From Tetraselmis striata (Eukaryota; Chlorophyta; Chlorodendrophyceae; Chlorodendrales; Chlorodendraceae), in contig VCJN01003203.1 in assembly GCA_006384855.1 (NCBI GenBank), positions 1 to 64,000 of the forward strand: DNA of 64,000 bases. The letters run 5' to 3'. Positions within the stretch are counted from its first letter, which is position 1, and every line of letters begins with the position of its first letter. The notes under the pieces are model-generated. The model saw nothing but the letters and a program-made list of their open reading frames with translations, did not search any database and was not told the origin of the DNA. The translations under genes and the position numbers were made by a program. Shown piece after piece: positions 11,229 to 40,430 of the stretch.

Positions 11229-11523
11229 GGGGGTGTACGTATCGGTGCTTGTGCCGTCTCAGCTCGGCATCGCATCTTTGCAAGGGACTCCATGCTCACA
11301 CAACGGCGCACCCAGCGGGTGTCAAATCGGGAAAATAGCGACATATGGCGAGTATACTTTGCGGTACGTTGGTTAGTACTCTGGAATAGAGTATGGCGCC
11401 GATTCCCCGGTATATTCCGGTCGTGTCTTGTGTAATAGTGCGCTAAGGTGGCGGATTTGATGTCCTCCTGGACCTTCGACATATGTATGAATCAGATTCC
11501 ATCAATAAAGTTTATGTCCCAGC

Positions 11524-12265: not shown

Positions 12266-12326
12266 CTGGGGTGGCGTCGTCCTTGTCTTCTCATCCCTTG
12301 GCAGGCTCGTTCTTCTTCGGCGCCAT
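12266..12326 (-). pseudogene. Copy B first exon of the methyltransferase-like gene, stop inside
   Basis: Reads [11 protein letters not shown] then a stop. In copy A the same 61-bp exon continues with Asp/Lys residues. The length, the ATG and the donor (cag/gtgagttgcgcgcgcg) are identical in both copies, which supports this as a genuine start exon. The rest of the gene is missing from copy B. Confidence 0.7.
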
Positions 12327-12986
12327 CCTGGCGGTAGATGTGTCGGCGCGATAGCTGAGCGGATTTCCGAGTCGGTAGCGGTGAGGGTGAGGTGGAAATG
12401 ACTTGCTTTTGGTCTTCGTCTGCTGCCGCCGCTCTAAACCCTGCTGGACCAACCGCGCGCGTGCGCGCACTACAGGGCACACACATCGTCGTCGTCATCA
12501 GGTTCATGTAATTTTGCACCGCGACGAATATATAGGGCAAACTACTGCGACTATAAATTGCGATTACTGGTACTCCCGTAGTGGATAATATATTCCCTAC
12601 TCGACAGTCATATCGGGACGAGAGTACAATAGCGTGGCAATAATATTCCTTTATATATTGGAATGATATATTCCTTGGATTGGATTATGGTGTACATACT
12701 ATTGCAGAATTATTCACGTACTGCGAAAGCAATACGAAACAACAAGAATACTACCACGGAACTATTTCGGAAATAAACTCATCCTTTGTACGGGATTACA
12801 TTTTTTGGCTTCCACTGAACAGGTATTTGATTCATCAAGTCGCTCAATTCTTTTGACCCATTGTTTGATATTATGCACACCAGTCAACCCGGATATTATG
12901 GCTCGTCCGAGAACGGTCATCCGCCGCCAGTTTACCTCACCACATACCCCAGTCCTCCACCGCCCCCACTCGCCCGACGCTGCAGC

Positions 12987-15900
12987 ATGGCGGCGGTCGA
13001 AAGCATAGCCTCTTCTCAAGGTTCCGGCGCGTCGGACACCACATTCACGGAACCGCTGTGCTGTACGTGCCGCATCGGGTACTCGTGTGATTGCGACGCG
13101 CGTGCCAGTGATCGTAAGGAGGCTTAGAAAAGAAAGTGCAAATGGCGGGGCAAGGACTCCGATGAGGTCGCCGATAGCGAGAATGGAAAGGGCTCGTTTC
13201 TGATCAGCAGACGCGCCTGACGGGACGCCATCCGCCTCATGCTCGCCAAGGAGGCAAGCGAGCGGTCGCCGTGCTGCTCGCGGAAGTGCGTGCCCAAGCT
13301 ATACACTCAGTGCGGAGAGGCTCTCGTTGATGCCGTGATGGACCGTGCGTGCGTTGACCGTATACTCTAGCAATCAGAGCCGCTCTTTTGACCGGCTCGC
13401 TCAGGTTCTCAGGGGTGGCTACGACTCGTCATCCGACAAGTTCGATTGAATATTTGACCACGCTGGTTACTTGCGCTCTTTCGATGAATCATCGAGGGCC
13501 CATCTACACGTGCGGCCGTGCATGGGAGGTCTTGCACCAGGTGTCGAAGCGCAAACGTCTCGTGATCTAGCTTTCGGTGGTGAGTAACGATCCCACGTAC
13601 CTCAGGCCGCGCTAGCAAAACGAGAGCAAACAGACCGGACCAAAGGAGCATATGCGCATGTTCCTCGAGACCTTATATTCTTTTCGGACGACCTCGGTCA
13701 TGTCGAGATCATGCCTTTCCACGACGGGAACAGCGAGGCCTTCAAGAAGCACATGCCTCCCTGGATGACCAAGATTTGCGTCTACTACTATTATAAGTCG
13801 TGGGCTGAGGACGACAACGCGTTTCTCCATGGTGAGGCCATTTTGTCCCGCTGATGACAAACCATTTTGTCCGACTGATGACGTGAAGATGTCGTACCAC
13901 TGATGACATACGGATTTCGACCCACTGATGACATAACGTTTTCGTCCGAATGATTACTAAAAAAACTATTTCTTCGTCCCGTTGATCATAGAACTTTTTG
14001 TCCCGCTGATGACAGATAGACCGATTTCGTCCCGCTGACGACATAACGATTTCGTCCCGCCAATGACAGAACTATTTCGACAGACAACTTTTAATCGAAC
14101 AACCGTCCCGCTTCTGCTAGAATTATTTCGTCCGTGTCGATTTGCCCGCTGGGAATCGATCTCTCCACTCATTTAATTGGATATTTATTGCTTTTGGCTT
14201 TATTGGTTTCGGCGTGCTATTCTAACCCGCTATCGATAGCCCTTTCACGATTTCGACAAACAATATCGCTAACAAACCCTCTTAACCTACCCATCGCTTT
14301 ATAGATTTGCCTACCGAGGGCGAAGTGAAGCTCGCGTCATTTTCCACTTTCCGCCGATTTAAGAAGAAAGAGTTCCCGAATGTCACCACACCAAAGGTGA
14401 AACGATACAGCAATTGCCCCATTTGTGCGGCGGGCAAAGCGCTCAGAGACCAAGCTCGCGAGATTTGCACTAACGACATGACGCCAGAGGAACGTCAAGT
14501 GTACCGTCAACATCAGCAGCTTGTGAGGCGTCGAGTCAGAGCCGAGCATAAGGTCCACCTCGAGAGAGTGCGCGAGGAACAAAGGGATCTGAACAATGCC
14601 GTCTCCCAGTCGCGCCTTGGCCATGGAAACTTATAATTCTTCGAAATTGATAGCATGGACTCCACGAAGAACTTGCTGCCTCACTGGATTCGCATCCCAA
14701 AGTCTTTGAAGCTCGATATGCTCCTCAAGTAGATCACCTGACATGTTTGAAGTACGACGGCTACCGCCCGGACGGCATCTACTACTACACTTACACCATC
14801 CCCCATGATTCATCCACGACTTGCACTTATATGAATCACGATCGCGAAGATTAGCTCGTTGTCCTCCGGACTGATTCGCCCTAGTTGTCTAGTGGCCGTG
14901 GACTGATGAAATCTGATCTGATCGCTTCGGCGATGTAGAAAATTCAGCAACTCCGTGGCAAAAAGATTCCTTACATCATATTCCAGATGGACAACACCGT
15001 CAGGGAGAACACGAATAGATACGTGGCGGCCCTTTGCAATTGGCTTATTGTGTCTATTGGCATGTGCGACGTCATTCACTTGGTCTTCCTGCTTGTCGGG
15101 TATACTCAAGAACGGGTTGACCAGATCTTCAGCCGCATCAATCTTGCGCTATCTCGTAGCTCCGCCTACATAGTCGAGGCTATATATTCTTGATTTGGGA
15201 GCGAAGGCATTCTCGCCCACTCCGGAGATTGCAGAGCTCGCAGATTGCAGAGATTGCAGATTCTCTCTCGACTTCTCCGAGTGGTCAAGGCCCCATTTCC
15301 AAGACCATATCTAGGACATCAGCAAGCCGCACAAATTCGAGTTCACGCGTGATGACGCCGCCACGTCCGGCGGCTCGTTGCGCACCGCCTTGTGGTCCGA
15401 CACTCCGCTTTCCGAGCCCGTGCAGATCTTGAAGAGCGCGCCAACTAGGACGCCCGAGATTCGTGCGGGCCGGCCCCTTTTGTACGCTCTCTGCGACAAA
15501 AAGAAGCCCGACGCGCTAAAGGTCCAGAGGTACTTGGATGACTTCAAGAAGGTCAGGTCGTATATCACGGACCTGGCGGTCCAGTGGCACTTCTCCCCAG
15601 CCGAGCGCGAGAGTTGAAATAACCTGCTTGACAACTTGGATGAGAAGGAGACTGGTCCTTCGGCAGCTTTGTCCGGGTTCTGGCCGCAACGGAAAGAGGA
15701 AGTTTATGACTTTTTGCGCGAGCACGGGCAGACCGCGCCCGCTGAGGCACGTAGTCACTCGATGGCTACCAACGCCGACCTCAACAATGCCGTAACCGCT
15801 CGCGTTGAAGTCGATGTTCGAGCTCAGGTGCTTCAAGATGACAGTGCCTTCAAGGGAGTTCACGCCGGCGCCAGTGAGAGTCGTCATGACAACACATCGC

Positions 15901-16626
15901 CCAGTGATGCAAAGGGCACGAACCTCGTTGTCATCAACGTCTCCGATGCGAGTCCAATTGTTTAGCATTTTTGTCCTTTACATGACAAAACAATTTGGTG
16001 CATCTGCCTTGCTTGTTACTTTGTCCTAGCTTGGACCAGAATGGTATGGCGTGTCGCTCGGGACTAAAATAAGCTCGCGGTCTTGGTCATCGTTAGGTGC
16101 ATGAGGAAGACAAGTGTCCCTGAAACTCTTGGTGATTGGGAGTCGAGATTCGTCATCGGCTTGTGAAGTCGCGCGAGACTACCGAAGACACGTTGACCGT
16201 GGGCCGTATACGAGCCCTTCCATGCCGATGCAAAGGGCAAACCCCTCATGCCCCTATGGTTGTACGCGCAGACAAAAGGAGGGAAGAAGCCAGTTGACAC
16301 AAGCTGGGAGAAGTGCCTGACGCCTTCCTTGGAAGCTTGTTGAAGCCGTCCCCCTATCGTACGCGAAGGCCATCCACGACGCGTCGGGAAGTCGAGAGGT
16401 GTTCAACGAGGGACGGCACCATGGTCAGAAAGAAGGGTACGGGTAAAAGCGTCCAAGTCGTGAAGACATATGCGCAAAACTGGGTGCAAATCAGCCAGCC
16501 ACGAAACAACTGCGTCCACGTCATGTCAACCACCCCAGCGCAACGCAAACAAACCCGGCGGAGTCGTCAAGTTTAACGTCAGCCACGAAGAAGGACTTGC
16601 TTGAGTTGGGGATGCTCAACGAATAA
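12987..16626 (+). pseudogene. Copy B transposase pseudogene (DUF7869-type)
   Basis: Aligns by eye with the copy A transposase from ATG (12,987) to the terminal stop (16,624-16,626). Several in-frame stops occur early (for example TAG about 13,126 and TGA about 13,218) and near 14,635 and 15,616. Intron 1 (13,832-14,304) has intact gtgagg and atag ends and holds the 24-bp repeats. The intron 2 donor is lost (gatta in place of ggtga). Conserved pieces: CPICAAGKALRDQAREI, MDNTVRENTNRYVAAL. Copy B keeps about 300 bp (about 15,650-15,960, including a frame with GFWPQRKEEVYDFLREHG) that copy A has lost, so it shows more of the ancestral C-terminal region. Confidence 0.75.
13840..14115 (-). repeat. 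24-bp minisatellite array in transposase intron 1, copy B
   Basis: About 11 diverged units, antisense to the transposase gene, inside the intron bounded by 13,832 and 14,304. Same intron as the array at 29,960-30,728 in copy A. Confidence 0.85.
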
Positions 16627-16671
16627 ACTATCAGCAACGTCTTGTGGCTAGCTAGCCGCTGGATGTAATAA

Positions 16672-16916
16672 TCATAATAAATATTGATTCATTGCCTCAT
16701 CTTGTCCCATTTTGGACAAAATGCTCCAAAACCAACATTGGATATGCGTCGCGCTGGCCTCATGCTGTTGAATGCTGCACTGCACCCAAGGTCTACAAAC
16801 CCAAGCTACATCACCAGTGAGTCTTAAGTACTGATAGTAAACCCGGGAACTAGGGTATAAACAAACCCTACGGTGCAAAATGAATTCCACGGTGCAAAAT
16901 AGGTTAAATTACTGTT
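16672..16916. repeat. Subterminal region and terminal inverted repeat, copy B
   Basis: Inverted match to 27,572-27,810 of copy A. It contains an imperfect ttgtcc/ggacaa palindrome, two direct ggtgcaaaat motifs (16,872-16,900) and the terminal sequence aaataggttaaattactgtt. Confidence 0.8.
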
Positions 16917-19900
16917 TAATGTGCCCTTCTACGCAAGCTCCCAGGCGCGAGGACCCCTTGGATAGGTCTCCACGTCGCGCGGACCCCGTTATCATTTTGG
17001 CTTTTCTTCTTGGATTATGGGTGACATGTGTTACAACATCCGCACATACATGTGGAGCAGTGGCGACAGCATTGTTGTCGAGGGGGCCTGCCCGCGCTTA
17101 GCCTACGGTGCGGGCGGTATAAGCATGCACCTATGGAATCGAAGCCACTTTATGTGTGCTACTTTCACCCAGCGAGGCGCGGCCAACGGCGCTTACCTTA
17201 TGACTTGGAAATTTGTGGGATAATTGGCCCCATATCACGATGACGGCATTATTGGCACACTCTCATGGAAATGCCATGCATTGCATCGGTAGCGTGCATG
17301 GATTGGGCTCAAGCTCGGTCTTCTTACAGCGCAGGCATACGTCCACCCACCACCGGCAGCGCGCGGGCATTTGCGACGGATGGTAGCTACGCCGCCAACA
17401 AGTTGCCCCCTATTCATCGCCCGTTTTTCTTTTGGTTTTAGCCATGTGCCAAACAATGACATTGCCGAAGAACAATTCTAAGGTGCGATAACCGGGAGAA
17501 ACGGCTGCCTCCTTGGCGTAAGAGGCTTGCATACACTTGATTACAAGGCTCCATGTCCCCCTTGCCCCCATGGCTTGGGCACCGAGGCGAGGATACTCGC
17601 GGACTACTATGTGCAAAGACTTATGTGGACTGGTATATTGAAAAACAATACAGCATGCGCCATAAACTGATATCTCAAATGCGAGAACTTTCACCGATGG
17701 TTTTATTGTAGTTCTTATGAACTTATAATATCGACTCCGCCTCCGCCGCTCATCGTTAAAGTCGCTAATATATCGTAGTCGCTACATTCAATATGGCTCC
17801 GCCCAGCCCGTATCGGGTGCAACCCCCCCCCCCCCCGCCCCCCCCCGCCCCCCCCCCCCCGCCCCCCCCCCCCCCTCCCCCCCCCCCCCCCCCCCCCCCG
17901 GCGAGTGCCCCTTGTGGGTGCCCCCGGGATTCGGTTAGATAACGGGGTTTTGATAAATTTCCGTAGTGCAGATTTATTGAACTTGCAGTCGTCGCCTGCG
18001 CCGCCTATATATAATACGGGCTGACCCGCGAGTACCACCGGTAAGGACATTTATCGGGTCGATGGTTCGCTACTCCCCATGCATTGTAACCAAACCCAAC
18101 TGAGATCAGGGGCCATGCATGTCACCCAAAAGGGAACGATGAACAACAGAGAAATGCTGGCAGCGCTTATTGGTTGCCGGTTAGAAATCGAAGGCAACCG
18201 GGGTGCGGGAATTCGACGGGAATTCGAGGTGCGGGCCGACCCGGTCTGTCAACAGATATGATCCAATATAATTCAAGAATATACACGGAAATATAGAAAA
18301 CAACATATGCCCTAACTCCTGACATCATTTTCAGACATAGATGGTGTTGCCCACGGATAATAGTTGTATTGCGATCGAAAGTATACCTGAGTTACACGGC
18401 GCACCCGCACAGTGTTTAAATTTTAAAATCGGCGATATAGCGCGCGAATAGTGTCTCATGTACCCGTACAAGGACCACCCCCGTCCCACCCCCGAATCGG
18501 CCACTAGCAGTGCACACGACGTGAACGAGAGCGAGCCTCTAGACCACCACACATGGGCCCTTATGGGCTAGGGGTGGGGTATGGGCCGAGTCGTTTGGAA
18601 TGTGGTGAGGCACGGGTGAAGAATCGTGCGTTTCATCCCGTGTCTCACCTCCTCCCGATAACCGTCGTATTTTCGCTAATTTTAAATATTATCACAGCTA
18701 CCCGTCGCTCCATCGGCTCCCGGTGCACCTATAAGCAGACAAATCCATCTATATCGGTCTCTATCACTCGCATATGGGTATAGTGGCCTTCGGCATGCGT
18801 AGGTAGATGGGTGGCGCGTCGATCACTCATCTACGGGTGGTGGTTGGCCGGCCCCCCATTCAGCCCGTTTATCTAATCTCGGTTCAAAAAATGGGGGAGA
18901 TGGGGCACCGCGCACCGACCACCTCATGGGCCACTCATGGGCTGTGCCACACCCCTGGAAGCGACGACCATGGGACGGTACATGTGCGGCGGGCTAAGTA
19001 GTTAGCTGCAGGTGGCAGGCGATGCCTATGTGGGAGGTAGGGGTCGAGAGCGCGGAAAATCCGGGTCGGTCGGGCCCATCGGGCCGGCATCGACTGAGAT
19101 TGACCGCAAACTGACGGCCAGCAGACGTCACATCTGCATATGGGCCTCTACTAGTGCTCATACGATCGATAAGCAGAGAGCTACCTCAGCCGCCCCACGG
19201 GAGGGGTTGAGGCCGGGGGTGTATTTCCGAAAACGCGGGTTCCAAGATCGGACGGCTTCTTGAATCGGGGGCAGATGGGGCACCGTCTCTGTAGCCCCCG
19301 ACCTCTAGCTTAAATTTTCTATAGCATCACTATGAGATAGGCTATGAACCTATCCTATTTCCAGGGCAGGTGGTGCCCGTTCGGCTCGGGCATGAGGCCG
19401 TTAACATCGCCCCCCTCCGTGAGCCGAACGGGCGCTGCCCGTCCGCGGTTGCGTCCGACATGTGGCCGTTTTCGCGCACTGCTACGTAGCGCACGAGCGA
19501 AATATACCGGGAAATAAGCGATAAACACGATACACTATTCTAGAGTACTAAACAACGAACCCCGAAATGTACATTTCGCTATATCTCCGATTAGGCACCC
19601 GTTGGGTGCGCCGTGTACCTGTCCTCCAGATGAAATGCGAATTGCAATAATTTCACTGCCAACGCGAGCAAGAGACGTGCAATGTCCTGCAAACTTGCTA
19701 TTGCGGCATCAGTCGCTCTTGTTACTCACAAAATGGAATAAAAAATCATCGCAAATACACAATGGTACCCGACGTTGCATTCGTTACTCTTCGCCCGAAA
19801 TTACATGCCCTTGCAAATACTGCATAATGCCCAATTTTCTAATCATTTTGTCCACTCTTGTGAGACATTGTCGCACGTTTGATAAGATCAATTTGGGAAT

Positions 19901-25805: not shown

Positions 25806-27567
25806 ACGGGGCGAGGCGAGGAACCGTGGATGGTGGGTAACGCTGGGTGCCGGCGGTGGGTGGGTGTTGATTTCGGTAGTTGGGCTTGGTTTCGGTAGCT
25901 GGAAGAAGCCGACAACTTTGTTGCACCGTGTGCCAACCGGCCCCTTGCGGCACTACAAGCCGTTGGCAGCCCCAACGAAGTCAGTCGGTTGTCTCAATGT
26001 TTGGGCTTGTGCAAACCGTCGAATTAAAAGCTCATTACGCCAGATTGCGCGACCCATTCCCCGTTAAGGGGTAGCTACGGACGAATTACGAGCACGTCTG
26101 TGTTAAATGATGACACATGTGTCCTTATTTAGACGCTAAATACGGTCGCCACACGGGATATGGCTAAGGGCTTAACACAAATACGCAGATATTACGCTAT
26201 GGATACGCAGCAAGCCGGGTACTCGTACTACTGCTACGACCTGCGCTATATAATAGTGGAGCGCGAGTCGTCACGGCGCGGCGCCGGACTTAGGAATTTT
26301 TAAGCAGTAGCTGCACCTACCTGACGCACATTCGCACACCCGCGAGATAGTACCGTAGCGGCAAGTCCCCCAGCACCATCCATAATGGCTACGCACGCCA
26401 GCAAGTTAATTCCACGCCCTCCCTACGGCAAAGCCGTGAGGACTAGAGGCATGAAAATACCACTCAGTGCTTTGTGCAACACTGGTCGCATCGTTGAGGA
26501 CATGCGGCATGCACTGTTCGGTGGCCAAGCGACCAACAGCCACACATCCGCGTTCTCCCAGAGCAACCCCAGGGCAAGGACGCTTTAGGCTATGCTCTCG
26601 CGGACATACTGAACAACTAAACTGAGCGGAAGTAGTACGACGAAGCCGGAAAGAAGCACATGCTTGATGCATGTTTTTAAATGTCCGATGATGGGCAGTC
26701 CCACCCATGAGACTGCCAGTCTGTTTTTATCAGCAGAGTGCCAGCATTGGCGATTTTAAACCGCCTTCGATTTAGATGGTGGAGACCTCACAGCCGCCGC
26801 CGCCGCCGCCGCGAAATCAAAACCACAAGCAAGAGGACTAGGTTTTGGGCGGTGGGCGTTGGGTGCGCAAGGCAGCGGCGCCAGGGCGCTTCGTTCGCGG
26901 AATGTACCCGACGCGTGCCCAGATCTTGAACCCAAAACCCGACCCCCCCCCCCCCTCCGCAGCATCTGACATGGGCACGGGCGTTAAGAACGCCTCTGTC
27001 GACGGTCCATGCCATACTCCCACGAGCCGGGGCCGGAGTCCACCCTGAGAGTAGGTACAGTGATTCGGCGGGTGGCTGACATGACTGCGTGGATAATGTG
27101 AAATTCACATGCGTTGACCGCCCCGTGTTGCGTTTTTGCTGGTGTTCTTGCAACTCAAGACAAGGCGGTGCTCTCCACCTTGCAGAGGTATGGCAGCAGA
27201 GCGACTTCGGGAGGTACAACCAAGCCGGCAATAAGTGCCCCCCTCCTAGCGTGATGTTCAAGGGCGAGGAGGAGGTCTGCGGGGTGACGCCGCACTCGGA
27301 AGCCGCAGGTGACTCGCGTTGGTTTTCGCACTTGTTCGATTACACAGCCACCGCCGCGACAAGCAATCAACTCGCATACTGACTTTCGCAATTGATGTGT
27401 CAGACACCCAGTCCCTAAGTTTGGCGGTAAGCTAGTCTTATCGAGTCTTCATCGCAACTATAGGATCGTGGCGCTGCCGCTGGCAGGCATCGCTGCGTCG
27501 CCAGAACTCCACCGTTTTGTGGGCATGTTGAAGCAACAACAGAAGAAGGCGGGCGGCATCATCAAGC

Positions 27568-27620
27568 ACAAAACAGTAATTTAACCTATTTTGCACCGTG
27601 GAATTCATTTTGCACCGTAG
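27568..27620. repeat. Left target duplication and terminal inverted repeat, copy A
   Basis: ACAA at 27,568-27,571 is followed by the terminal repeat from 27,572. Two direct copies of ttttgcaccgt lie at about 27,589 and 27,608. Confidence 0.75.
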
Positions 27621-27864
27621 GGTTTGTTTATACCCTAGTTCCCGGGTCTACTATCAGTACTTAAGACTCACTGGTGATGTAGCTTGGGTTTGTAGACCTT
27701 GGGTGCAGTGCAGCATTCATCAGCGTGCAGGCCAGCCGCGACGCATATCCAATGTTGGTTTTGGAGCATTTTGTCCAAAATGGGACAAGATGAGGCAATG
27801 AAATCAATATTTATTATGATTATTACATCCAGCGGCTAGCTAGCCACAAGACGTTGTTGATAGT

Positions 27865-30800
27865 TTATTCGTTGAGCATCCCCAACTCAAGCAAGTCCTT
27901 CTTCGTGGCTGCGTTAAACTTGACGACTCCGCCGGGTTTGCGTTGCGCTGGGGTGGTTGACATGACGTGGACGCAGTTGTTTCGTGGCTGGCTGATTTGC
28001 CACCCAGTTTGCGCATATGTCTTCACGACTTGGACGCTTTTACCGTACCACTTCTTTCTGACCATGGTGCCGTCCTCGTTGAACACCTCTCGACTTCCCG
28101 ACGCATCGTGGATGGCCTTCGCGTACGATAGGGGGACGGCTTCAACAAGCTTCCAAGGAAGCGTCAGGCACTTCTCCCAGCTTGTGTCAACTGGCTTCTT
28201 CCCTCCTTTTGTCTGCGCGTACAACCATAGGGGCATGAGGGGTTTGCCCTTTGCATCGGCATGGAAGGGCTCGTATACGGCCACGGTCAACGTGTCTTCG
28301 GTAGTCTCGCGCGACTTCACAAGCCCGATGACGAATCTCGACTCCCAATCACCAAAAGTTTCAGGACACTTGTCTTCCTCATGCACCTAACGATGACCAA
28401 GACCGCGAGCTAGGTTAGTCCCGAGCGAGACGCCACGCCATTTTTGTCCCAGTTGGGACAAAATAACAAGCAAGGTAGATGAACCAAATTGTTTTGTCCC
28501 GTAAAGGACTGCCGAGGAGAAAGCTGCCGAAGGAGCAGTTTGCATCTCATCCAAGTCGTCGAGCAGATTCTTCCAGCTCTCGCGCTCGAGTGGGGAGAAG
28601 TGCCACTGGACCGCTAGGTCCGTGATGTACGACCTGACCTTCTTGAAATCATCCAAGTACCTCTGGACCTTCACCGCGTCGGGCTTCTTTTTGTCGCAGA
28701 GAGCGTACAAAAGGGGCCGGCCCGCACGAATCTCGGGCGTCCCAGTTGGCGCGCTCTTCAAGATCTGCACGGGCTCAGAAAGCGGTGTGTTGGACCACAA
28801 GGCGGTGCGCAACGAGCCGCCAGACGCGGCGGCGTCGTCACGGGTGAACTCGAATTTGTGCGGCTTACTGATGTCCTGAATGTGGTCTTGGAAATGGGGC
28901 CTTAACCACTCAGAGAAGTCGAGGGAGAATGAGAGCTCAGCAATCTCCGGAGTGGGCGAGAATGCCTTCGCCACCAAGTCAAGAAAGGCCTCGATTGTGT
29001 AGGCGGAGCTGCGAGATAGCGCAAGACTGATGCGGCTGAAGGTCTGGTCAACCCGTTCGCGAGTGTGCCCGACAGGCAAGAAGACCAAATGAATAACGTC
29101 GCAGATGCCGATAGACACAAGCCAATTGCAGAGGGCCGCCACGTTCCTATTCTTGTTCTCCCTGACGGTGTTGTCCATCTGGATTCTGATGTACGGAATC
29201 TTTCTACCACGGTGTTGAATTTCCTGCATCGCAGACCAGATTTCATCAGTCCATGGCTACCGGACAACCACGGCGAACCTATCGGGAGGCTAACGAGCTC
29301 ACCTTCATGATCGTGATCCATATCAGAGTGCACGTCGTGGACGAATCGTGGGGGATGGTGTTGGTGTAGTAGTAGATGTCGTCCGGGCGGTATCTGTCGT
29401 ACTTCACACAGGTGAGGTGGTACTTGAGGAGCATGTCGGGCTTCACAGTCTTGGGGATGCGAACCCAGTGAGGCAGCAGGGTCTTCGCGGAGTCCATGCT
29501 ATCAATTTCGAAGAAGAAGAAGTTTCCATGGCCAAGGCGCGACTGGAAGACGGCGTTGTTCAGATCCCTTCGTTCCTGGCGCACTCTCTCGAGGTGTACC
29601 TTCTACTCAGCTCTGACCTGACGCCTCACCAGCTGCTGATGTTGACGGTGCACTTGACGTTCCTCTGGCGTCATGTCCTTTGTGCAAATCTCGCGAGCTT
29701 GGTCTCTGAGTGCTTTGCCCGCCGCGCATATGGGACAGTGGTTGAATCGCTTCACCTTCGGCGTGGTGACATCCGGGAAGTCTTCCTTCCAAGTCCGGCG
29801 GAAAGTGTCGAACGATGCGAGCTTCACTTCGCTCTCGGTAGCCAAATCTACAAAGGGGCAGGGGCATGATAGGTCGGTATACAAATAAGGTCTCATAATG
29901 CGAGACAGAAAAGTTCGGTCTAAAGTGGTCGAAATAATTATATCGGTAGTGGGTGAATAATTCCGTAATCAGCATGGCGAAACAATCTGTCATCAGTGTG
30001 ACGAAACGGTATGTCAGTAGTGGGACAAAACCGTCTCTCAGCAGTGGGACAAGACGTTCTCTCTGCAGTGGGACGATATCGGCTAATTATGTGGGACAAA
30101 TACTTTTGTGGTCGGTGGGACGAAACGGTATGCCATGAGCGGTGCGAAACGTTCTGTCATCAGTGGAACGAAATCGGTCCGGCGTCGGTGGGACTAAACG
30201 TTCTGGCGATAGCGGGACGAAACGGTTTGTAAAGAGGGACGAAACGGTTTGTCATCAGTGGGACGAAACGGTCTGTCATCGGTGGGACGAAACGGTTTGT
30301 CATCAGCGGGACAAAACGGTCTGTCATCAGCGGGACAAAACGGTTTGTTATCAGTGGGACGAAACGGTTTGTCATCAGTGGGACAAAACGGTCTGTAATT
30401 AGCGGGACAAAACGGTTTGTCATCAGTGGGATGAAACGGTTTGTCATCAGCGGGACAAAACGGTTTGTCATCAGCGGGACAAAACGGTTTGTCATCAGTG
30501 GGACGAAACGGTATGTTAGCAGTGGGACGAAACGGTTTGTCATCAGCGGGACAAAAACGGTATGTAATTAGCGGGACAAAACGGTCTGTCATCAGCGGGA
30601 CAAAACGGTCTGTCATCAGTGGGACGAAACGGTTTGTCCTCAGTGGGACGAAACGGTTTGTCATCAGCGGGACGAAACGGTCTGTCGTCAGCGGGACAAA
30701 ACGGTATGTCATCAGTGGGACAAAATGGGCCTCACCACGGAGAATGGCGTTGTCGTCCTCGGCCCACGACTTGTAGTAGTAGTAGACGCAAATCTTGGTC

Positions 30801-31561
30801 ATCCAGGGAGGTAGGTGCTTCTTGAAGGTCTCGCTGTTTCCGTCATGAAAAGGCATGATCTCGACGTGACCGAGGTCATCCGAGAAGAAGTGCTCGAGAA
30901 ACATGCGCACATGCTCCCTCGGTCCGGTTTGTCTGCTCTCGTATTGTTTGCGCTGCCTGATGTACGTGGGTTCGTTATCCACCACCGACCGCTGGATCAC
31001 GAGACGTCTGTGTTTCGAGACCCGATGCAAGGCCTCCCACGCACGCCCACACGTGTAGATGGGGCCCCGATGGTCGAAAGAGCGCAAGTAGCCACCGTGA
31101 TCAAACATGTAATCGAACTTGTCGGATGCCGACTCGTAGCCACCCCTGAGAACCTGAGCGAGCCGGTCAAAGGAGCGGTTCTGATTGCCAGAGTATACGG
31201 TCAACGCACGGTCCAACACGGCATCAACGAGGGCCTCTCCGCACTGTGTGTATAGCTTGTGCACGCACTTGCGCGAACAGCATGGCGACTGCTCGCTAGC
31301 CTCCTTGGCGAGCATGAGGCGGATACAATCGCGAGAGGTGCGCTTGCTGATCAGAGACGAGACCTTGCCATTATCGCTTTCGGCGACCTCATCGGAGCCC
31401 TTGCCCCACGTGTACTTCCTTTTCTCATGCTCCTTACGATCACTCGCACGCGCGTCGCAATCACACGAGTACTCGCTGCGGCACGAACACAGCGGTAATG
31501 TAACTGTAGTGTCCGACGCGCCGGATCCTGGAGAAGAGGCCATGCTTTCGACCGCCGCCAT
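27865..31561 (-). pseudogene. Copy A transposase, DUF7869-type, inactivated
   Basis: Exon 1 31,561-30,736, intron 1 with 24-bp repeats (30,735-29,848), exon 2 29,847-29,303, short intron (46 bp), exon 3 from 29,256, and a last exon ending at 27,865. N-terminal part: Cys-rich segments (CSCRSEYSCDCDA, CCSRKCVHKL) and YTCGRAWEALHRVSKHRRLV. Middle: PKVKRFNHCPICAAGKALRD, then EIDSMDSAKTLLPHW. Core: IQMDNTVRENKNRNVAAL and LPVGHTRERVDQTFSRIS. This order is typical of the DUF7869 group, which I infer to be an RNase H-fold transposase with acidic residues at IDSMD, QMDN and VDQ. Defects: TAG at 29,603-29,605 where copy B has His, and a deletion of about 300 bp near 28,510 relative to copy B. The last exon (VYEPFHADAKGKPLMPLWLY) is conserved in both copies. 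Confidence 0.75.
29960..30728 (+). repeat. 24-bp minisatellite array in transposase intron 1, copy A
   Basis: About 32 units of gtcatcagtgggacgaaacg plus four bases (24 bp), direction plus, antisense to the transposase. Intron ends lie at 30,735 (gtgagg) and 29,848 (tag). Confidence 0.95.
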
Positions 31562-32106
31562 GCAGCGCGGGGCGAGTGGGGGGGGGGGGGGGGGGGGGGT
31601 GAAGGACTGTGATCTGTGGTGAGGAAGAGTGACGGCCGATGACCGTTCTCGGACGGGCCGTTGACCGGGGTGTATAATATCCAGCTACGGGTCAAAATAA
31701 TTGATGACTCAAATACCGTATTATTTCGTGTTTCTTTCGTATGTCGGTGATAGTTCTATACTATTAAGTACACCCGAATCCAATCCAAGGAATATATCAT
31801 CCCATGAAGGAATATTATTGCCACGCCACTGTACTCTCGTACCGTTATGACTCTCGAGTAGGGAATATTTTATCTTCCAGTAATAGTAATATATAGTCGC
31901 AGTAGTTAGCCTTGTATATTCGTCGCGGTGCAAAATACATGAACCTGATGACGACGACGAGGTACACTATAGTGTGCGCACGCGCGCCGTTGGTCCAGCA
32001 GGGGTCAGAGCGGCGGCAGACAGAAACCACGTCATTTCCACCTCTCCCTCACCGCTTCCCACCAAGAAACCCGCTCATCTACCGCGTCAACCTACCTACC
32101 GCCAGA
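31562..32106. promoter_or_regulatory. Divergent promoter region of the transposon genes
   Basis: 545 bp between the two start codons, conserved in copy B (12,327-12,986), with a poly-G run at 31,578-31,599 just upstream of the transposase ATG. AT-rich words such as tatattcg and aatatatc occur in both copies. No promoter element can be fixed by eye. The role is inferred from position. Confidence 0.55.
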
Positions 32107-35100
32107 ATGGCGCCGAAGAAGAACGAGCCTGCCAAGGACAAGGAAGACAAGGACGATGCCACCCCAGGTGAGTTGCGCGCGCGTACAGTAGCTGCCTGCC
32201 TGCTCGACGCGTGATACGGCCAGATCTAGCGAGTTCGGTTAGGGTTCCCTGTAGAAGCGGTGTAATCTAGGACCACTCGAGGTGTAGGCAGACGAGTGGG
32301 AGCGTACAGTAGCCGCCTGCCTGCTCGACGCGTGATACGGCCAGATCTAGCGAGTTCGGTTAGGGTTCCCTGTAGAAGCGGTGTAATCTAGGACCGCTCG
32401 AGGTGTAGGCAGACGAGTGGGAATAAAACCCCAAACGAGACGAGCGGCATCAGGGTCTTGCATGGTAGTATTACGTCCCGTCGAGGCAGCTGCGGCAAGT
32501 TCAATAAGGATGCTAATTGGTGGTGGGAGGGGGTGGGGGTGAAGAGCGGCCATGTGGAACCTGTGCCTGTACTCCGCCGTAAGGAGTGGTTTAATATTAG
32601 TGTGAAGCGCAGTACTTAAAGACATTACATTATTAAACCGCAGTACATAATGTATTGAAAATAGGTTTGTCATCAGTGGGACGAAACGGTTTGTCATCAG
32701 CGGGACGAAACGGTTTGTCATCAGTGGGACGAAACGGTTTGCCATCAGTGGGACGAAACGGTCTGTCATCAGTGGGACGAAACGGTTTGTCATCAGTGGG
32801 ACGAAACGGTATGTCATCAGTGGGACGAAACGGTTTGTCATCAGTGGGACGAAACGGTTTGTCATCAGCGGGACGAAACGGTCTGTCATCAGTGGGACGA
32901 AACGGTTTGTCATCATTGGGACGAAATGGTTTGTCATCAGTGGGACAAAACGGTTTGTCATCAGTGGGACGTAACGGTTTGTCATCAGTGGGACGAAACG
33001 GTTTGTCATCAGTGGGACGAAACGGTTTGTCATCAGCGGGACAAAACGGTCTGTAATTAGCGGGACAAAACGGTTTGTCATCAGTGGGATGAAACGGTTT
33101 GTCATCAACGGGACAAAACGGTTTGTCATCAGTGGGACAAAACGGTCTGTCATCAGTGGGACGAAACGGTTTGTCATCAGTGGGACGAAACGGTTTGTCA
33201 TCAGTGGGACGAAACGGTTTGTCATCAGTGGGACGAAACGGTTTTTCATCAGCGGGACGAAACGGTTTGTCATCAGTGGGACGAAACGGTTTGTCATCAG
33301 TGGGACGAAACGTTCTGTCATCAGTGGGACGAAACGGTCTGTCATCAGTGGGACGAAACGGTTTGTCATCAGTGGGACGAAACGGTTTGTCATCATTGGG
33401 ACGAAACCTTCTGTCATCAGTGGGACGAAACGGTCTGTCATCAGTGGGACGAAACGTTCTCTCATCAGCGGGACGAAACGGTCTGACAGGATATGATATT
33501 TATAGGTCGAAGGTCCAAGCGGACATCAAAACCTACCGAGAAAGCAAAAGAATTCGATGCGCTCGGAGCGCTAGTAGGGAGAAAACACAAGGCGTCATCT
33601 TCTGTGCCCGAGCAGCCGGCGGCGAAGAAGAGCCGTGCAGCCTCAGCTTCTGCAGCTAGAGCGGGCGCTGAGGCATCAGGTAACCCCTGGAAACCGAGCC
33701 TTTTAGGAGGTAGGGTGCCGGCTTACGGCACGCACTCGCAAGGAGAAAGATCGGCCGCCTTGCTTTTGAGGGCCCGAATCAAGAGCGGCCAGGTCCTCAA
33801 ATGCTCAAATGCAGACAGCGCGAAGGCTAATCGATTACGAAAAGCTCATGCAAGCTTACTATCAATCAGGTCCTCGCCTCTCCAATCATATGATTTTTGT
33901 GAGTGCACTGTGTCATATTGACATTGTTTGAAATCATGTGTGTTGACAGGTTCGAAAGGACGCGCACAAGAGCCAGTAGCGACTAAAGCTTCAAAGGAAT
34001 CCAAGGGGAAAGAAAAGGTTTCAGAGACGATTGTGACTCCAGGTAATTGTGACTGAAAGTATCAATCCCTGCCTTTGTGAGTGCACTGTGTCATATTTAC
34101 ATTGTTTGAAATCATGTGTGTTGACAGGTTCGAAAGGACGCGCAAATGAGCCAGTAGCGACTCAAGCTTCAAAGGAATCCAAGGGAAAAGAAAAGGTTTC
34201 AGAGACGATTGTGACTCCAGGTAATTGTGACTGAAAGTATCAATCCCTGCCTTCTCACTCCCTTCGATTACTTTCTCGTCAATGAGTTATCTGACGTTCC
34301 AACATGTAAATTGGCGCAGGCATCCGCGTCGGAAGCAGCTGGTAAATCGGGAGCCCCAGGTAAGAAAAATCACGCTTGGCTTTGATGGTATATGGCGATA
34401 CCGTTCAATAGTTAATCGTGACGCCCACTGCAGGTGTGTTGAGTACTCTCTACTCATTCTTTACAGGTTCCCCGAATCAAGGCTCTTCTTTGTCTAAAGG
34501 CCCATCTCAAGTACCGGAAACAGAGCCTGAGCCTGAAATAGAGCACACTGAGCCGGAGCCCGAGCCCGAGCCGGAGCCTGAAACAGAGCCCAATGAGCCC
34601 GAGCCAGAGCCTCGGCATGAGCCTGAAACTGAGCCCACTCAGATGGAGCCCGAGCCGGAGCCCGAGCCGGAGCCCGAGCCCACTCGGATTGACCCGGAGC
34701 CAGAGGCCGAGCTCGAGACTCCAGCGCCGACTACCGGGCAAGCGTCCGGTTCTGGAGCCTCTGGTTCTCGAGCCCCTATTGCCGAGGCTCCGAGAAGGGT
34801 TCCTGAATTCCTCAGTATGTGCACGGATGAAGAGGTCTTCGGCACAGAGGAAGTTAGAACAGAGGCAACGGGCGGCAGAGAAGCGTAAGCAAGCTCTCGA
34901 CATCACCGGAACTCCCGGACCCGAGAGGAAGACAAAGCTTATGACAGTCGCCTCTTACGACGACTTCTTTGACGAGAGGGACGGATCCCAAGAACATGAC
35001 TCCTACAGCGACTTTACCTCAAGGAGCTGGACTATCCACTGGTTCAAGAACACAAGTGCTGAGGTACAGATCTATTTGTACATCGAATTGCACAAGGCGA

Positions 35101-38100
35101 GCCTGCTGACTGGCAAGGACTTTTTCGATGATCCGAAGGGGCCATTACTCGCGTGTATCGGAAAGATCAAGGACGTCGAGCTGGACTCGGCCGGAAACTA
35201 CGGGGTGAGTGAAGCTTGTATGATGTCTGAATTCGTGTCAATGTCGTGTTTCAATAAGTATTAATATTCTTATGCTTGTTACCGCAGATCTGTCTTGAAC
35301 CTTATCGCTTGACAGTGCACAAGGAGTTCAGGATCGATGTCAGCTTTGAGAGGTTGCTACTCCACGCGATCCAACCGCCACTCTGCTTCCAACCGCGGTT
35401 CCAGTCTTACTACGCATGGACTTTGGTCGAGCGCAATGTGCTGGCGCAGGCGCTGACAGGTTTCGCGTCTGGTGAGATTGACATCGATGACTTGGCCAAC
35501 ATTGACAAGGATTTTAAGAACGCGCTTCCATACGTCAACACGTTGGCCGTCCCGCCGGCCTTGAATGGCTTCCACAACACCGGTGCCGTCGACTGGATCT
35601 CTTACGGCCACCTCAGAGTCGAGATTGCTGATCCAGAGGTGAAGACATCTCACGGTGGCGACATCAACACGTTATACGCCGACAGAGTCAACCTCGTCGT
35701 CGACAAGGATACGGGGCTGCCTCACATTTTCAGCTTCATATCCGATAAGTTCGTCGCTCCGCCGCCGGAATTTGAATTCCGTTCCCCAAAGCTGCAAGAC
35801 TGCAATATGGTGGCGCAAAGCTACAAGGTAAAAGCCTATCGCGACCTGTTGTACCTATCCGGATCAGATATGTGTAGACAAATATAAATCAATACACAAT
35901 GCAACTTACTGACATCCATTTCTTGCATTTGTTATTCAGAGGAATCCTTCCCTATCCGCCGAGAATTTCTCAGTGTCCTTCCCAGTGGTCTACAAGAACC
36001 GCGCTTAACGTTCTCGCGAAAGAGTACGAGCCCCTCGCTCTGACCATGGCCAACTTCAAGGAGCTAGTCGCAGCATTCGAAGGCGGAAAGAACCCGAGGT
36101 TGGCGGATTCAAGTTCCTACAAGCCAGAGATCGACGTCATCATCGAGTTTCTTAGCGCCTACGGCGCGCTTCAAGCCAACATCGACGGCAGCCACAGACG
36201 GGAGGCGAAGCGCATGGTGAAAGAAAACTACCCGGAAATCTACAAAGCCAACAAAGGCATCCACCTCACGTCGGCTAAGATGTACATCGGCCTCTCGCCG
36301 GAAGTCTGCCGCTACATGTCTATGAAGCTCAACGAGGCGGGTCACACCGCCGTGGGAGACACGTCGATGCACAAACTCCTGGTGAGTGACCCATTCTCCC
36401 AAATTATTATTAAGCTGACCGTGGCAGCAAATAGGCGTAAAGTGTGACAAAAGTCGTTCTGTCGTTAGCGGGTTAAAAATATGTGACAGTGGGACGAAAC
36501 GGTCTGTCATCAGCGGGACGAAGCGGTATGTCATCAGTGGGACGAAACGTTCTGTCATCAGTGGGACGAAACGTTCTGTCATCAGTGGGACGAAACGGTT
36601 TGTCATCAGCGGGACGAAACGGTCTGTCATCAGTGGGACGAAACGGTCTGTCATCAGTGGGACGAAACGGTTTGTCATCAGTGGGACGCAACGGTCTGTC
36701 ATCAGCGGGACGAAACGGTATGTCATCAGTGGGACGAAACGGTCCGTCATCAGTGAGACAAAACGGTTTGTCATTAGTGGGACGAAACGTTCTGTCATCA
36801 GCGGGACGAAACGGTTTGTCATCGAGGTACAATCGTTCGGAATTTTGAAATCGGTGCAATTGTTTCTGCAGAACCTTCGCAGATGTTTCGAGAGCTGGTA
36901 TGCAGAACAGGATGCAAATCGCCCCGGCTTTAGGGCACTTCCGCAAATCAGGGTAGTGAAGGAGTTCAAGAAGTCTGAAGTTCTTCAAGTTGAACTTGAG
37001 AAGATCGGCATCAAAGATGAGAAGAGCAGCGAGTTCTCAAATTTGATTGACCTCTGCTCGCGCCCAGAACGGTGAGCTGCGTACATGATGAAAATTTATC
37101 GTGTTGTTAATGCTGCTAGATTCTGACAAATGATTTGCGCAGTGTTTTTGAGCCCCTTGAGCAGATTTCTGAAGCCTACCGGCATGTGGACCTCGGGGTT
37201 CGAGGATGGGACGAAGCCAGAACCAAACTCGGAGACCTATTTGTGTACTACCAGCAAGAACTCGATAGAGTCGAGCGTCTCAATTACGGCAGGCAACTCA
37301 CCCAGAAGGAAGTGAGGAAGGTTTACGAAGCAATTCGGAAGCCTATCAATACAATCCTCGATAACAAGAAGTACGGCTTCGGGAAAGACAGAGCTCACTT
37401 CCGAGTCGCCCTCATGGAGGTAAGTTGTGACCGACCCCAGTGTCTTAATCATATGGAATACTATCATTGATTCCTTTCCGTACTGAAGTTTGTTTTCGAC
37501 CCAGGATGTCGGCTTTGGACCCCATGCGCCCTGGCTAGACGAGCCGTCTCTTGCCAAGCAGAGCGACAGCGCGGATCTCCCTGTGGGCCAGATGTACCTG
37601 GTGGTTGGACTGCTCATCCAAGGCGAGCACAGTGTGACCCCGAGCCTCTACGAGCTGGTGGATGACATAAAGCATGCCGGCGACAATGGCCCCATGGCTG
37701 TTACGCACACCAACGCGGAGTGGCTCGCGATGATTGAGACCTGGAGGTTTCGCGATCTCTTGCGTCGAGCAAGCATCAAGCTCATGAATGCTATTGGCAC
37801 GGCAAAGGGACACGGACAGGAACTCCAACTGCTGACGCCGGACGAACCGGCCAGGAACTGGGGGAAATATCTCTCGGACCACATCATCGAAATGGATGTG
37901 GATGACGATGTGTCGGATGAGCAAGCGGCCGCTCGCCTTGACGCCATCACCAAGTTCCGAGCCAAGGTTGATGACCTCGGCCCAACAGGCTTCCCCAGAA
38001 AGTTCCAGGATTTGTTCAAAGGTGCTCATCGCTCCGGTCCGTTGATGGTCTTGCTGACCCCTCCTGCCAGATGGGGGGACATGAAATCCGCCGATTGTCT

Positions 38101-39657
38101 CACACCACTACCGGTTCGAGAGCATATCGCGGCCACCAACACCACCATCAGGAGTGAGGCGTATCGCATCAAGAATCAGATGCCGGACTTGGTCATCTCC
38201 TTCTTCACAGAGTTTGCTCTTCTGGCATGTGCGCCGGAGCTTATCGCGGTTTCCGCTCCGAATGTTTCTAATGAGCTGTGGATATCGATGAAGGTAACTA
38301 AGATCTTGTGCAACCACAAATGCTCTTCTGAATTTTCGTTGTGAGCTATTAACCCGAATCTGTTTTCTAATACGCACAGGCCGAGGAACTTCCGGTGATG
38401 CCCAAGGGACAAGGGGTCGACAAGGATGACAAGGTGTGGTTGAACACGGAGCTTTGCAAGACTTGCATTGTGGAGGGGAACTTCAAGGCTCCCGCGACAA
38501 AACAATTCGTCGCGGACGCCATGTCGGCAGTTCGTGCCAGAAAGGCAACAGTCTTCATTGCCGACGCGCTTTTCGGAGCTGGTTCGCACACATGGGACTC
38601 GAAGGATGCTGCGTGGGGTACGGACGACTTCAACGACGTGTTTGCTTTCGCCAGGCAAGACAACCCCCACAACCCCGGTGCGTAGATGACTGTGCTTTCA
38701 TTTATCTCATTCCCGATTTTCCCCCGCGCAGGCAGTTGAATATCCTGACTGGATCTTCTGACGTCCACACTGCTCTCGATGGGTGCCATTTCTTCATTCA
38801 CCTCTCGGACCAGCAACTTGGATCCGCAATCACAGCCGTTCAAAAACAAGCTGAGGACCTCATCTATCACGTCCTGACTTGGGCCAAGGATTGCGGGATG
38901 AAGATGGGCAGCTCTCTGCGTCACGACGCTGAGTACTACCTCTACGTCAGGAAGCCCCCGCCAAGCATCATAGCTGACAACATCCGTTTCGATGATCCCC
39001 GAAGGTGAGATTTGATCCGTGGAAAATAGCCGGCTTGTATTATTCTACTCGCTAAGCCGGTTGTGCCTTTCCAGATTCTCTACATCCATCATGTTGGGTC
39101 ACTTCAAAGACAGTTCGAAATTGAAGGACGAGAACAGACAGACGGTGAACAAGTACCAAAAGCCTATCGCTCTCTTCGCCAAGCACCTTAAGATGGCGGC
39201 AACAGACGGGACAACAATCGTCGACGTCACAGCCGGAACCGGGACAACCGCGGTGCGTGAGGGGTGCAACCCGGGTGAGTGTCTTAATGGGATCAGCATA
39301 AAAAATTAACGCCTTGTGCGGTTTGCCACGCCTTTCCAGGTCGCTGCGGCCTTTTCCGTGTGGTGGGACCATATGGATCATAGCTACTCGTTCACACACA
39401 GGAACTTGAAGACGATCCTCATTGACAACCAGAAGACGCAAATCGCTGGGATGAAGTCCAGGATGACCTCATGGTTCAAAGAGAAGCCATGGGACGAGAC
39501 TCAAAGACTGCGTCCAAATGACTTCGAGAAGTGGCCGGGTCTACCCCATCCAATGACCGTGTCAGAGGAGTTCGCAGAGCGTCTTGCGGCGGAGAAGAGG
39601 AGGCAAGAGGCGGCAGAGCGCCGAGGGGATTATGTGATCGAAGATGATGATATGTAG
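32107..39657 (+). CDS. Large transposon protein with C-terminal DNA aminomethyltransferase-like domain
   Basis: Modelled exons: 32107-32167, 33506-33679, 33950-34042, 34128-34220, 34339-34359, 34467-34814, 34879-35204, 35288-35827, 35986-36381 (or from 35940), 36872-37071, 37143-37419, 37505-38293, 38380-38654 (GC donor), 38732-39004, 39075-39252, 39340-39657. All phases agree, about 1,453 aa. N-terminus: Lys/Ser-rich, two copies of a 31-aa exon, then a Glu-Pro repeat linker. Residues about 260-1050 are unrecognised. C-terminus: [17 protein letters not shown] occupies the place of the catalytic D-P-P-Y/F motif. [15 protein letters not shown] comes next, followed by [13 protein letters not shown], and [12 protein letters not shown] is motif I. 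This catalytic-then-SAM order is that of beta-class N6-adenine/N4-cytosine methyltransferases. D-A-L-F instead of D-P-P-F may mean altered or lost activity. The junctions at 34,814/34,879 and before 35,986 are the least certain. Confidence 0.7.
32180..32425 (+). repeat. Tandem duplication of about 124 bp in methyltransferase intron 1
   Basis: The segment from gcgtacagtagctgcctgcc to gcagacgagtggga occurs twice in a row, nearly identical. Copy B has a single related copy (about 12,130-12,260, inverted). Confidence 0.85.
32655..33485 (+). repeat. 24-bp minisatellite array in methyltransferase intron 1
   Basis: About 34 units, highly regular. Fills most of the intron 32,168-33,505. Confidence 0.95.
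33950..34258 (+). repeat. Tandem duplication of an exon plus intron (178-bp unit)
   Basis: Exons 3 and 4 (93 bp each) and their flanking introns repeat with 178-bp spacing. The two 31-aa segments ([18 protein letters not shown] and its twin) differ at only a few positions. Both are phase 1 to phase 1, so the duplication keeps the frame. Confidence 0.9.
36444..36825 (+). repeat. 24-bp minisatellite array in a third intron of copy A
   Basis: About 15 units in the intron 36,382-36,871 of the methyltransferase-like gene, same direction as the two other arrays. Confidence 0.95.
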
Positions 39658-39686
39658 TACAATTCCGCAAAATTAGCCGCTCATAT

Positions 39687-39900
39687 GTTTTGTCCCGGCT
39701 TTGACAGAGTTTCAGCCCCGGACGGCACAAACTACTTGTAGCCATCACGGCCCCCGCACTTTTTTTGTCCCAGTTTGGACAGAGTTTCAGCCCCCGATGG
39801 CGCAAACTTCTTGTAACCATCCCGTTTCCTTCACTCTTTTGATTTGTCCCTGCTTGGACGGAATTGGTTTCCCCGACTTGGCACAAAATGAACCAACCGG
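39687..39900 (+). repeat. Subterminal tandem repeats with ttttgtcc palindromes, right end
   Basis: Two and a half units of about 78 bp after the stop of the methyltransferase-like gene. Each begins ttttgtccc(n)ggaca and contains gagtttcagccccngangg. Comparable ttttgtcc/ggacaaa palindromes lie at the other end (27,765-27,790) and at 28,440-28,465. Confidence 0.8.
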
Positions 39901-39977
39901 CATTCATATTAGCTTGCAATCCCACTGCTGCCCCCAAACCCTAATTTAGACCTAACCACAATGCACCGCGTGCCTCG

Positions 39978-40006
39978 GGGCAAAATAGGTTGCATTACTG
40001 TTACAA
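39978..40006. repeat. Right terminal inverted repeat and target duplication, copy A
   Basis: gcaaaataggttgcattact ends the repeat (with gtt to 40,002). Its complement matches the left end except for a few bases. ACAA follows at 40,003-40,006. Confidence 0.75.
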
Positions 40007-40430
40007 TAACACCAACGCGGTCAAGACCCCGGCCGCCACGCAAGCCTTCCCCGGCGACAACATCTACGAGGGCAGTAGCCCGGAGCCCCCAGCCGAGAAG
40101 GCCAACCAGCCCGCCAAGCCGGCGGCTGGAGTGCCGGCCCGGGGGCATGGCGGTGCTGGGGCCATGGCGGGCGGTGGGCCGTTGAGGTCGTCGCGGCGGG
40201 CCGGCCGCCAGAACGCGATGGCAATAGCCGCTGCCACCACCCGCGCGAGCAGCAAGCCCGCCGCCGTGGCGGTCCCGACCGAAGCCGGCTTATTCCGCTC
40301 GCCCACTACCGCGAGCCTCGCCACCTTTGCCGCGCGCCTCGCCGCCGCGCGCTATCGCGCTATCTCGCCATCGCGCTATTGCGGATTAGGCCAGAAGAAG
40401 CGAGATTGTCGGGCTTCTAGAGCCAGATGA

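Follow-up and report, generated by a model that had tools for sequence, protein, structure and literature searches.

A 12.4-kb Tetraselmis striata transposon pairing a DUF7869 gene with a divergent gene for a methyltransferase-like protein

The Ectocarpus DNA transposon Sola1-1_Ec32 carries, on the strand opposite to its transposase, a gene for a ParB-like and N4/N6 methyltransferase protein, for which its authors proposed an active methyltransferase role. The passages of that paper that treat such genes mention the algal transposon with an N4/N6 methyltransferase gene briefly, and cite green and red algal transposons having a protein with the same ParB-like and N4/N6 methyltransferase parts (PMC12477816). 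Here, we describe a 12,431-bp element in a 64,000-nt stretch of the Tetraselmis striata contig VCJN01003203.1 (referred to as the window), in which a DUF7869 gene (gene 1) and a gene for a methyltransferase-like protein (gene 2) are divergently arranged. The T. striata family fits the Sola1-1_Ec32-type class in layout. Both are algal DNA transposons with an accessory gene of more than 1,000 amino acids opposite the transposase and an N4/N6-type domain. Unlike Sola1-1_Ec32 as described there, the T. striata element has a DUF7869 gene 1 (perhaps distinct from Sola1), has no detected ParB, and is 12.4 kb rather than 21.5 kb long. The new points are a conserved Asp-Ala-Leu-Phe (DALF) motif and three intronic arrays, for which the passages on Sola1-1_Ec32 in PMC12477816 note no counterpart.

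The arrays resemble most closely, among described behaviours, the targets of VANC in the Arabidopsis VANDAL elements, a likeness drawn from sequence alone. According to the parts of the literature that describe them, the VANC targets in VANDAL21 are tandem repeats in introns and upstream regions that vary in number and diverge together (PMC5735166), and VANC has highly variable regions while the VANDAL transposase is more conserved (PMC5735166; PMC10398659). Like the MuDR elements VANDAL21 and VANDAL6, the T. striata element has a variable non-transposase protein and intronic tandem repeats whose number changes from copy to copy and which diverge jointly. Unlike VANC, which has DUF1985 and DUF287, gene 2 has other domains, and the element shows no footprint of 5-methylcytosine (5mC).

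Three further groups, as far as the cited passages describe them, share one feature each with this element. TET/JBP-bearing fungal DNA transposons (Kojima 2025, PMC12730594) also have an accessory gene for a DNA-modification enzyme, but the enzyme is a dioxygenase, the hosts are fungi, and the transposases belong to other superfamilies. DNMT-bearing retrotransposons and the Dam-like genes in DIRS (PMC5890265) are also cases of an element-encoded DNA methyltransferase, but these are retrotransposons with C5 or Dam-like enzymes. Virus-integrated Mariners (PMC3627910) are also DNA transposons with a methyltransferase gene, but have a Mariner transposase, reside in viral genomes, and carry a separate endonuclease gene and methyltransferases of other families. 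An earlier note on this DNA, made from the letters alone, knew of no described element with such a pair; Sola1-1_Ec32 and the Mariners, both carrying methyltransferase genes, make the pairing less new than that suggests.

We tentatively read the element, with a probability of roughly 0.45, as a recently amplified cut-and-paste transposon of about 12.4 kb, whose gene 2 encodes a putative accessory protein acting on the element's own DNA.

Ends, abundance and pairing of the two genes

The unit delimited in the earlier note, with inverted ends and ACAA duplications, was confirmed. The two 30-nt arms are 87% complementary, and ACAA stands on both sides. The borders are as follows.

27572..40002, no strand: whole DNA transposon, 12,431 bp, a defective copy, delimited by its ends, duplications and joined-flank alignment
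27568..27571, no strand: left 4-bp target-site duplication, ACAA
40003..40006, no strand: right 4-bp target-site duplication, ACAA
27572..27601, plus strand: left terminal inverted repeat, 30 nt
39973..40002, minus strand: right terminal inverted repeat, 30 nt

Inverted ends and a target duplication of fixed length, the hallmarks of cut-and-paste transposition, are thus both found in the window element. We compared it with ten further copies of 10.6-12.6 kb, picked for having both ends on one contig. A perfect 4-bp duplication flanks eight of the eleven copies (ACAA, ACAG, GAAC, GCAA, GAAG, GTAC, TGGC, and ACAT), the exceptions being C1441, C914, and C226. A 4-bp target duplication would fit the Sola superfamily. 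When the window flanks were fused without the element, the alignment spanned the junction at 40/40 scored places (506 candidates; best 91%, C785). Hence, related empty sites still exist, and the element was inserted in repeated sequence. The insertion target itself (27400-27571 plus 40007-40180) is repetitive, with 40 or more related places in the genome, and the short left-flank frame had no Pfam match that would tell its type.

The T. striata genome was searched with five markers, allowing up to three mismatches except at the left end (exact); the counts are places, not proven full copies. The transposase-site marker occurs at 232 places, the motif IV and motif I markers of the methyltransferase at 237 and 253, the right end (last 36 bases) at 258, and the left end (first 23 bases, no mismatch) at 199, while the reversed-pattern controls gave zero for all five. 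The ratio of transposase, motif I, and right end is therefore near 1:1:1 (232/253/258). Among the matches listed, 64 of 146 methyltransferase rows pair with an opposite-strand DUF7869 row 5-16 kb away, 63 of 150 DUF7869 rows pair with an opposite-strand methyltransferase partner, and other arrangements account for two pairs. These pair counts are underestimates, as the known full-length copies C464 and C1302 are unpaired among the matches listed. With exact markers, 61 of 100 transposase sites have a methyltransferase marker 4-18 kb on (three pairs in other arrangements), and 37 have none within 30 kb; 34 of 55 exact right ends have an exact motif I marker 0.5-1 kb inside, and 21 do not. The unpaired markers may be a mix of diverged markers, contig ends, and true deletions. 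With 230-260 places per part, the genes near 1:1, and paired copies almost always in the same divergent order, the proposal that this is one element and not a chance neighbourhood is upheld. The search for further copies with the divergent pair, suggested in the same note, was likewise positive: four of the ten other copies have both genes open, and the older copy C2671 has the same order.

Predicted T. striata proteins (JGI Tetstr1, EukProt) match gene 1 at 98% over the entire queried region; for gene 2, identity reaches 97% in a match that spans 53% of the region queried. Several pairs have adjacent gene numbers, among them TSEL_018301/018302, 021040/021041, 006719/006720, and 035424/035425. 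Three protein searches returned T. striata proteins only, apart from one DUF7869 protein in ENA at 29%; more remote homologues would escape their word filter, and absence outside T. striata does not follow. No relative of either protein was found in viral contigs by a search that reaches close relatives only, tblastn found no phage match to the methyltransferase domain, and no PDB entry matched either protein in sequence.

Gene 1 consists of four modelled exons encoding 967 amino acids.

30736..31561, minus strand: gene 1 exon 1
29303..29847, minus strand: gene 1 exon 2, with an in-frame TAG at codon 357 in the window copy alone among 11
28516..29256, minus strand: gene 1 exon 3, carrying most of DUF7869
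27865..28386, minus strand: gene 1 exon 4

The earlier assignment of gene 1 to the DUF7869 type held, with a Pfam match of E 3.1e-40 for the spliced protein of copy C1441, and we infer that its product is the transposase. Asp388, Asp468, and Asp510 of P0021, which would fit a DDD/E core, are invariant in a nine-row alignment that includes an ENA protein at 26% identity. A 15-row alignment that takes in partial models leaves Asp388 near-invariant, and the other two fall outside the conserved lists. The literature searched does not mention DUF7869. Gene 1 is open in six of the ten other copies (C1441, C2428, C154, C1302, C1955, and C363) and has frame breaks in C1460, C226, and C464; C914 lacks the 5' part of gene 1 exon 1 as well as gene 2 exon 1. 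Neither gene is intact in the window copy, a point that the earlier note had missed. Aside from the TAG, this copy lacks, near 28509-28515 in gene 1, 288-290 bp that all ten other copies have, and the reading frame of its gene 2 is broken in exons 6 and 8.

The methyltransferase-like domain of gene 2

Gene 2 was described in the earlier note as a divergent gene of 16 exons. Its divergent orientation stands, and our model has 15 exons encoding about 1,495 amino acids.

32107..32167, plus strand: gene 2 exon 1
33506..33679, plus strand: gene 2 exon 2
33950..34042, plus strand: gene 2 exon 3, paired with exon 4 in a tandem duplication
34128..34220, plus strand: gene 2 exon 4, the second exon of this pair
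34336..34359, plus strand: gene 2 exon 5
34467..35204, plus strand: gene 2 exon 6, with Glu-Pro repeats; 4 extra bp at 34852 in the window copy alone among 11
35288..35827, plus strand: gene 2 exon 7
35940..36381, plus strand: gene 2 exon 8, hypervariable near 35990-36020, where the window copy is out of frame
36872..37071, plus strand: gene 2 exon 9
37143..37419, plus strand: gene 2 exon 10
37505..38293, plus strand: gene 2 exon 11
38380..38679, plus strand: gene 2 exon 12, where the methyltransferase-like domain begins; modelled GC donor
38563..38574, plus strand: motif IV position, DALF replacing DPPY
38736..39004, plus strand: gene 2 exon 13
39075..39252, plus strand: gene 2 exon 14, motif X and motif I (TAGTGTTA)
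39340..39657, plus strand: gene 2 exon 15 and stop

The model requires a GC donor for the intron after exon 12, a point that the JGI models treat differently. The region of about residues 1050-1083 may be removed by splicing, as its PPARW is missing from 13 of 18 JGI models. The gene is open in C1441, C154, C1955, and C363, all of which are also open in gene 1.

The earlier note had recognised a beta-class aminomethyltransferase layout at the C-terminus of gene 2, and had allowed that this domain might match no methyltransferase profile. Matches were obtained in Pfam, PHROG, and PADLOC. Specifically, residues 1258-1393 of the spliced C1441 protein match Pfam N6_N4_Mtase (PF01555) with E 3.7e-6 and 27.5 bits (cut-off 26.7), PHROG_67 is matched with E 5.3e-9, and PADLOC MTase_II with E 8.3e-9. 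The profile of gene 2 aligned in hhalign with seven bacterial and phage enzymes with E 1.7e-6 and a score of 49, whereas 30 shuffles of one sequence reached at most 21.9. The profile alignment places ADALFGAG of gene 2 under ADPPYNIG, and an unconstrained multiple alignment also puts DALF at motif IV. Both alignments also match further parts of gene 2 to the IVW stretch and to motifs X and I, and the resulting motif order from IV to I is that of the beta class. A plain local hhalign run covered motifs X-I alone (E 5.8e-6) and is silent on motif IV. The order IV, V-VII, X, I is shared with CcrM, RsrI, MboIIA, and YhdJ, as are the QKP.AL and TAGTGTTA stretches; these enzymes differ in having DPPY where gene 2 has DALF, and in being stand-alone proteins of about 260-370 amino acids. 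Motif I of gene 2, FxGxG-like and predicted to bind S-adenosylmethionine (SAM), keeps AGTGTT and aligns with LDPFAGSFTTGAVA; by its letters, the SAM motif is intact. The kinship of the gene 2 C-terminus with beta-class amino-methyltransferases, as judged from these alignments, is real.

Motif IV departs from the catalytic consensus (D/N/S)PP(Y/F/W) in gene 2. DALF was read at the DNA level in 11/11 young copies and 3/3 older ones (C2671, C345, and C1202), and it is present in 18/18 JGI gene 2 models. The 100 motif IV places listed among the 237 in the genome are exact matches and contain DALF by construction. Conservation of DALF across copies argues against decay of single copies. Neither proline of DPPY is left, which speaks against amino-methyl transfer of the ordinary kind and makes ordinary methylation by the gene 2 product doubtful.

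These data bear on the first rival explanation, in which gene 2 is an active N6-adenine/N4-cytosine DNA methyltransferase marking the element DNA for self-marking, protection, or altered silencing. Its Pfam match above cut-off, joined by PHROG_67 and MTase_II, the kept motif I, the aspartate and aromatic residue retained in DALF, and the proposal of the same type of role in the part of PMC12477816 that treats Sola1-1_Ec32 all speak for such an enzyme, but DALF stands in place of DPPY in all 14 copies and 18 models, and the best NCBIfam match, CcrM, is weak (E 5e-4, 19.1 bits, far below the cut-off of 830). We consider an active enzyme rather unlikely. The suggestion of the earlier note that the methyltransferase marks or protects DNA is accordingly weakened by DALF and may be wrong: its observation of the element is confirmed and its interpretation partly supported, with DNA marking somewhat disfavoured.

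Two other candidate motifs were examined. TPPARW (residues 1063-1068) was rejected as motif IV, as both alignments place DALF there; it reads DPPARW and APPARW in one annotated model each and TPPNRW in the older copy C2671. ParB-box-like stretches at residue 653 and about 926-958 bear a slight likeness, and neither passed the test. Gene 2 had no Pfam ParB match up to E 10. In hhalign, it scored 16.9 and 17.3 against a profile built from five YbdM/Noc ParB sequences, where 60 shuffles reached at most 18.7; an earlier single-sequence ParB run scored 18.7, compared with 18.0 for 20 shuffles (E 0.09).

Intronic arrays and the proposed role of gene 2

Three introns of the element contain tandem arrays.

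29989..30731, plus strand: array 1, 29 units of 24 bp (core GGGACRAAACGG), in gene 1 intron 1
32669..33484, plus strand: array 2, 34 units of the same 24-bp unit, in gene 2 intron 1
36482..36817, plus strand: array 3, 14 units of the same 24-bp unit, in gene 2 intron 8

All three share one unit, GTCATCAGYGGGACRAAACGGTYT, in a single orientation relative to the element. The 11 copies contain 720 units with a 24-bp period, 6-36 per array, and C1460 has lost array 3. The older copy C2671 has arrays in the same three introns, with mostly 25- and 26-bp units (GGGACGAAAWCGGTCTGTCATCAGY), and in the decayed second window copy the spacing is mostly 25 or 50 bp. Related GGGACRAAA sites lie 0.87-0.92 kb from the left end in 11/11 copies. 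Toward the right end, nine of 11 copies have sites at distances of 0.24 and 0.31 kb, and each of the other two has a single site nearby; C1460 has an extra site 25 bp from the right end. A unit shared across introns and a different spacing in an older relative would be expected from a partner that reads the sequence, and the arrays may be landing pads of the gene 2 protein. Gene conversion between arrays could also yield this pattern.

In the preferred reading, that of an accessory protein acting on the element's own DNA, the gene 1 product would serve as transposase, while the gene 2 protein would dock on the array units and perhaps also on the related sites nearer the ends. The docked protein would alter the chromatin or modification state of the element DNA, and the altered state would keep the element expressed and mobile. 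Less surely, the gene 2 product would be a SAM-binding and DNA-binding pseudo-methyltransferase, or an enzyme of unusual chemistry, rather than a standard N6-methyladenine/N4-methylcytosine enzyme, because DPPY has become DALF while the SAM-binding motif is kept. A VANC-like self-recognition, evolved independently, in which a pseudo-methyltransferase reads the intronic 24-bp arrays, unit and protein change together between subfamilies (24-bp and 25/26-bp units), and each subfamily treats its own copies only, is a speculative and unlikely extension by analogy. Between young open copies, gene 2 has 3-13 differences per 100 amino acids by segment (four copies) and gene 1 has 0-1.6 (six copies). 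The ratio of nonsynonymous to synonymous substitution rates (dN/dS) speaks for the preferred reading, giving signs that both genes are under selection for function (gene 1, 0.09-0.45 in 15 pairs of six open copies; gene 2, 0.43-0.62 in six pairs of four open copies).

Several observations weigh against the preferred reading. The shift in array unit rests on one older copy and one decayed copy, and in the less diverged C1202 and C345 the spacing is mostly 24 bp. Slippage or conversion could have spread the 24-bp units as neutral minisatellites. Seven of the 11 copies, namely the window copy and six of the ten others, have a broken gene 2. The calculation of dN/dS on open copies only biases it toward low values. 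CpG sites do not mutate in excess among the 11 copies (C to T changes, 0.019 per site there versus 0.028 elsewhere), hence there is no footprint of the 5mC silencing that VANC counteracts. G to A changes occur at 0.034 per site both at CpG and elsewhere, and the observed/expected CpG ratio stands at 0.99 for the element and 0.98 for its flanks (near 1 over window positions 17000-60000), giving no sign of CpG methylation decay. A strong 5mC-silencing account was considered and found support in neither the mutation spectrum nor the CpG ratio. If the element evades silencing, then probably the mark is other than 5mC, or the copies are too young.

Another explanation takes gene 2 as a transposition cofactor: its product would join the transpososome as a second DNA-binding protein, using the methyltransferase fold for DNA binding only, with the arrays and near-end sites as docking sites. 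It draws on the fixed-order pairing with the transposase, the degenerate motif IV, and the GGGACRAAA sites, which all 11 copies have near the left end and, at least once, no more than 0.32 kb from the right end. Opposed to it are the location of the arrays in introns, not just near the ends, and the 7.3-kb derivative C70 without methyltransferase exons, which possibly moved in trans or lost them after insertion. We hold this cofactor role to be unlikely. That gene 2 is a captured passenger without a role for the element, as the frame breaks in six of the ten other copies and the window copy would allow, is very improbable given dN/dS below 1 between open copies, markers near 1:1, and retention of the gene in an older copy.

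With its 230-260 places per part, copies both intact and broken, the older relative, and candidate binding arrays, the T. striata family makes the question of self-DNA modification or reading directly testable in a culturable alga. If gene 2 encodes a pseudoenzyme, the idea that such genes exist to methylate DNA would need revision for this lineage.

Older copies, derivatives and variation within gene 2

The older copy C2671 has about 80% DNA identity and both genes in the same divergent order. Compared with the young proteins by tblastn, its gene 1 is 80-89% identical, and its gene 2 is 51-54% identical in residues 226-395, 394-719, and 751-885, rising to 65-88% beyond residue 879. The identities are approximate, as the translated segments in part run across introns or frame breaks. 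The window itself holds a second, older copy at about 11450-16920 on the minus strand, which the earlier note took to have the same two gene starts and the same end. The left end, the gene 2 start, and a decayed transposase were found there together with remains of two arrays, but the copy is truncated and has no intact pair. Copies lacking the second gene, which that note would have counted against its reading, were seen as deleted or truncated derivatives, namely this copy and C70:47941-55284. The latter (7.3 kb) has both ends and the transposase marker; the part read lacks gene 2 exons 10-15, and the derivative is likely non-autonomous for gene 2.

One annotated chain, P0063 (TSEL_005106), contains both DUF7869 and N6_N4_Mtase; it probably comes from a deleted element or a mis-spliced or mis-joined model. 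Within gene 2, a 178-bp stretch is tandemly duplicated at 33896-34251, doubling one exon (exons 3/4), and C914 is one unit shorter. In exon 8, a stretch of about 10 residues (35990-36020) varies in letters and length between copies while both sides are conserved, possibly as a contact site or a slippage hot spot.

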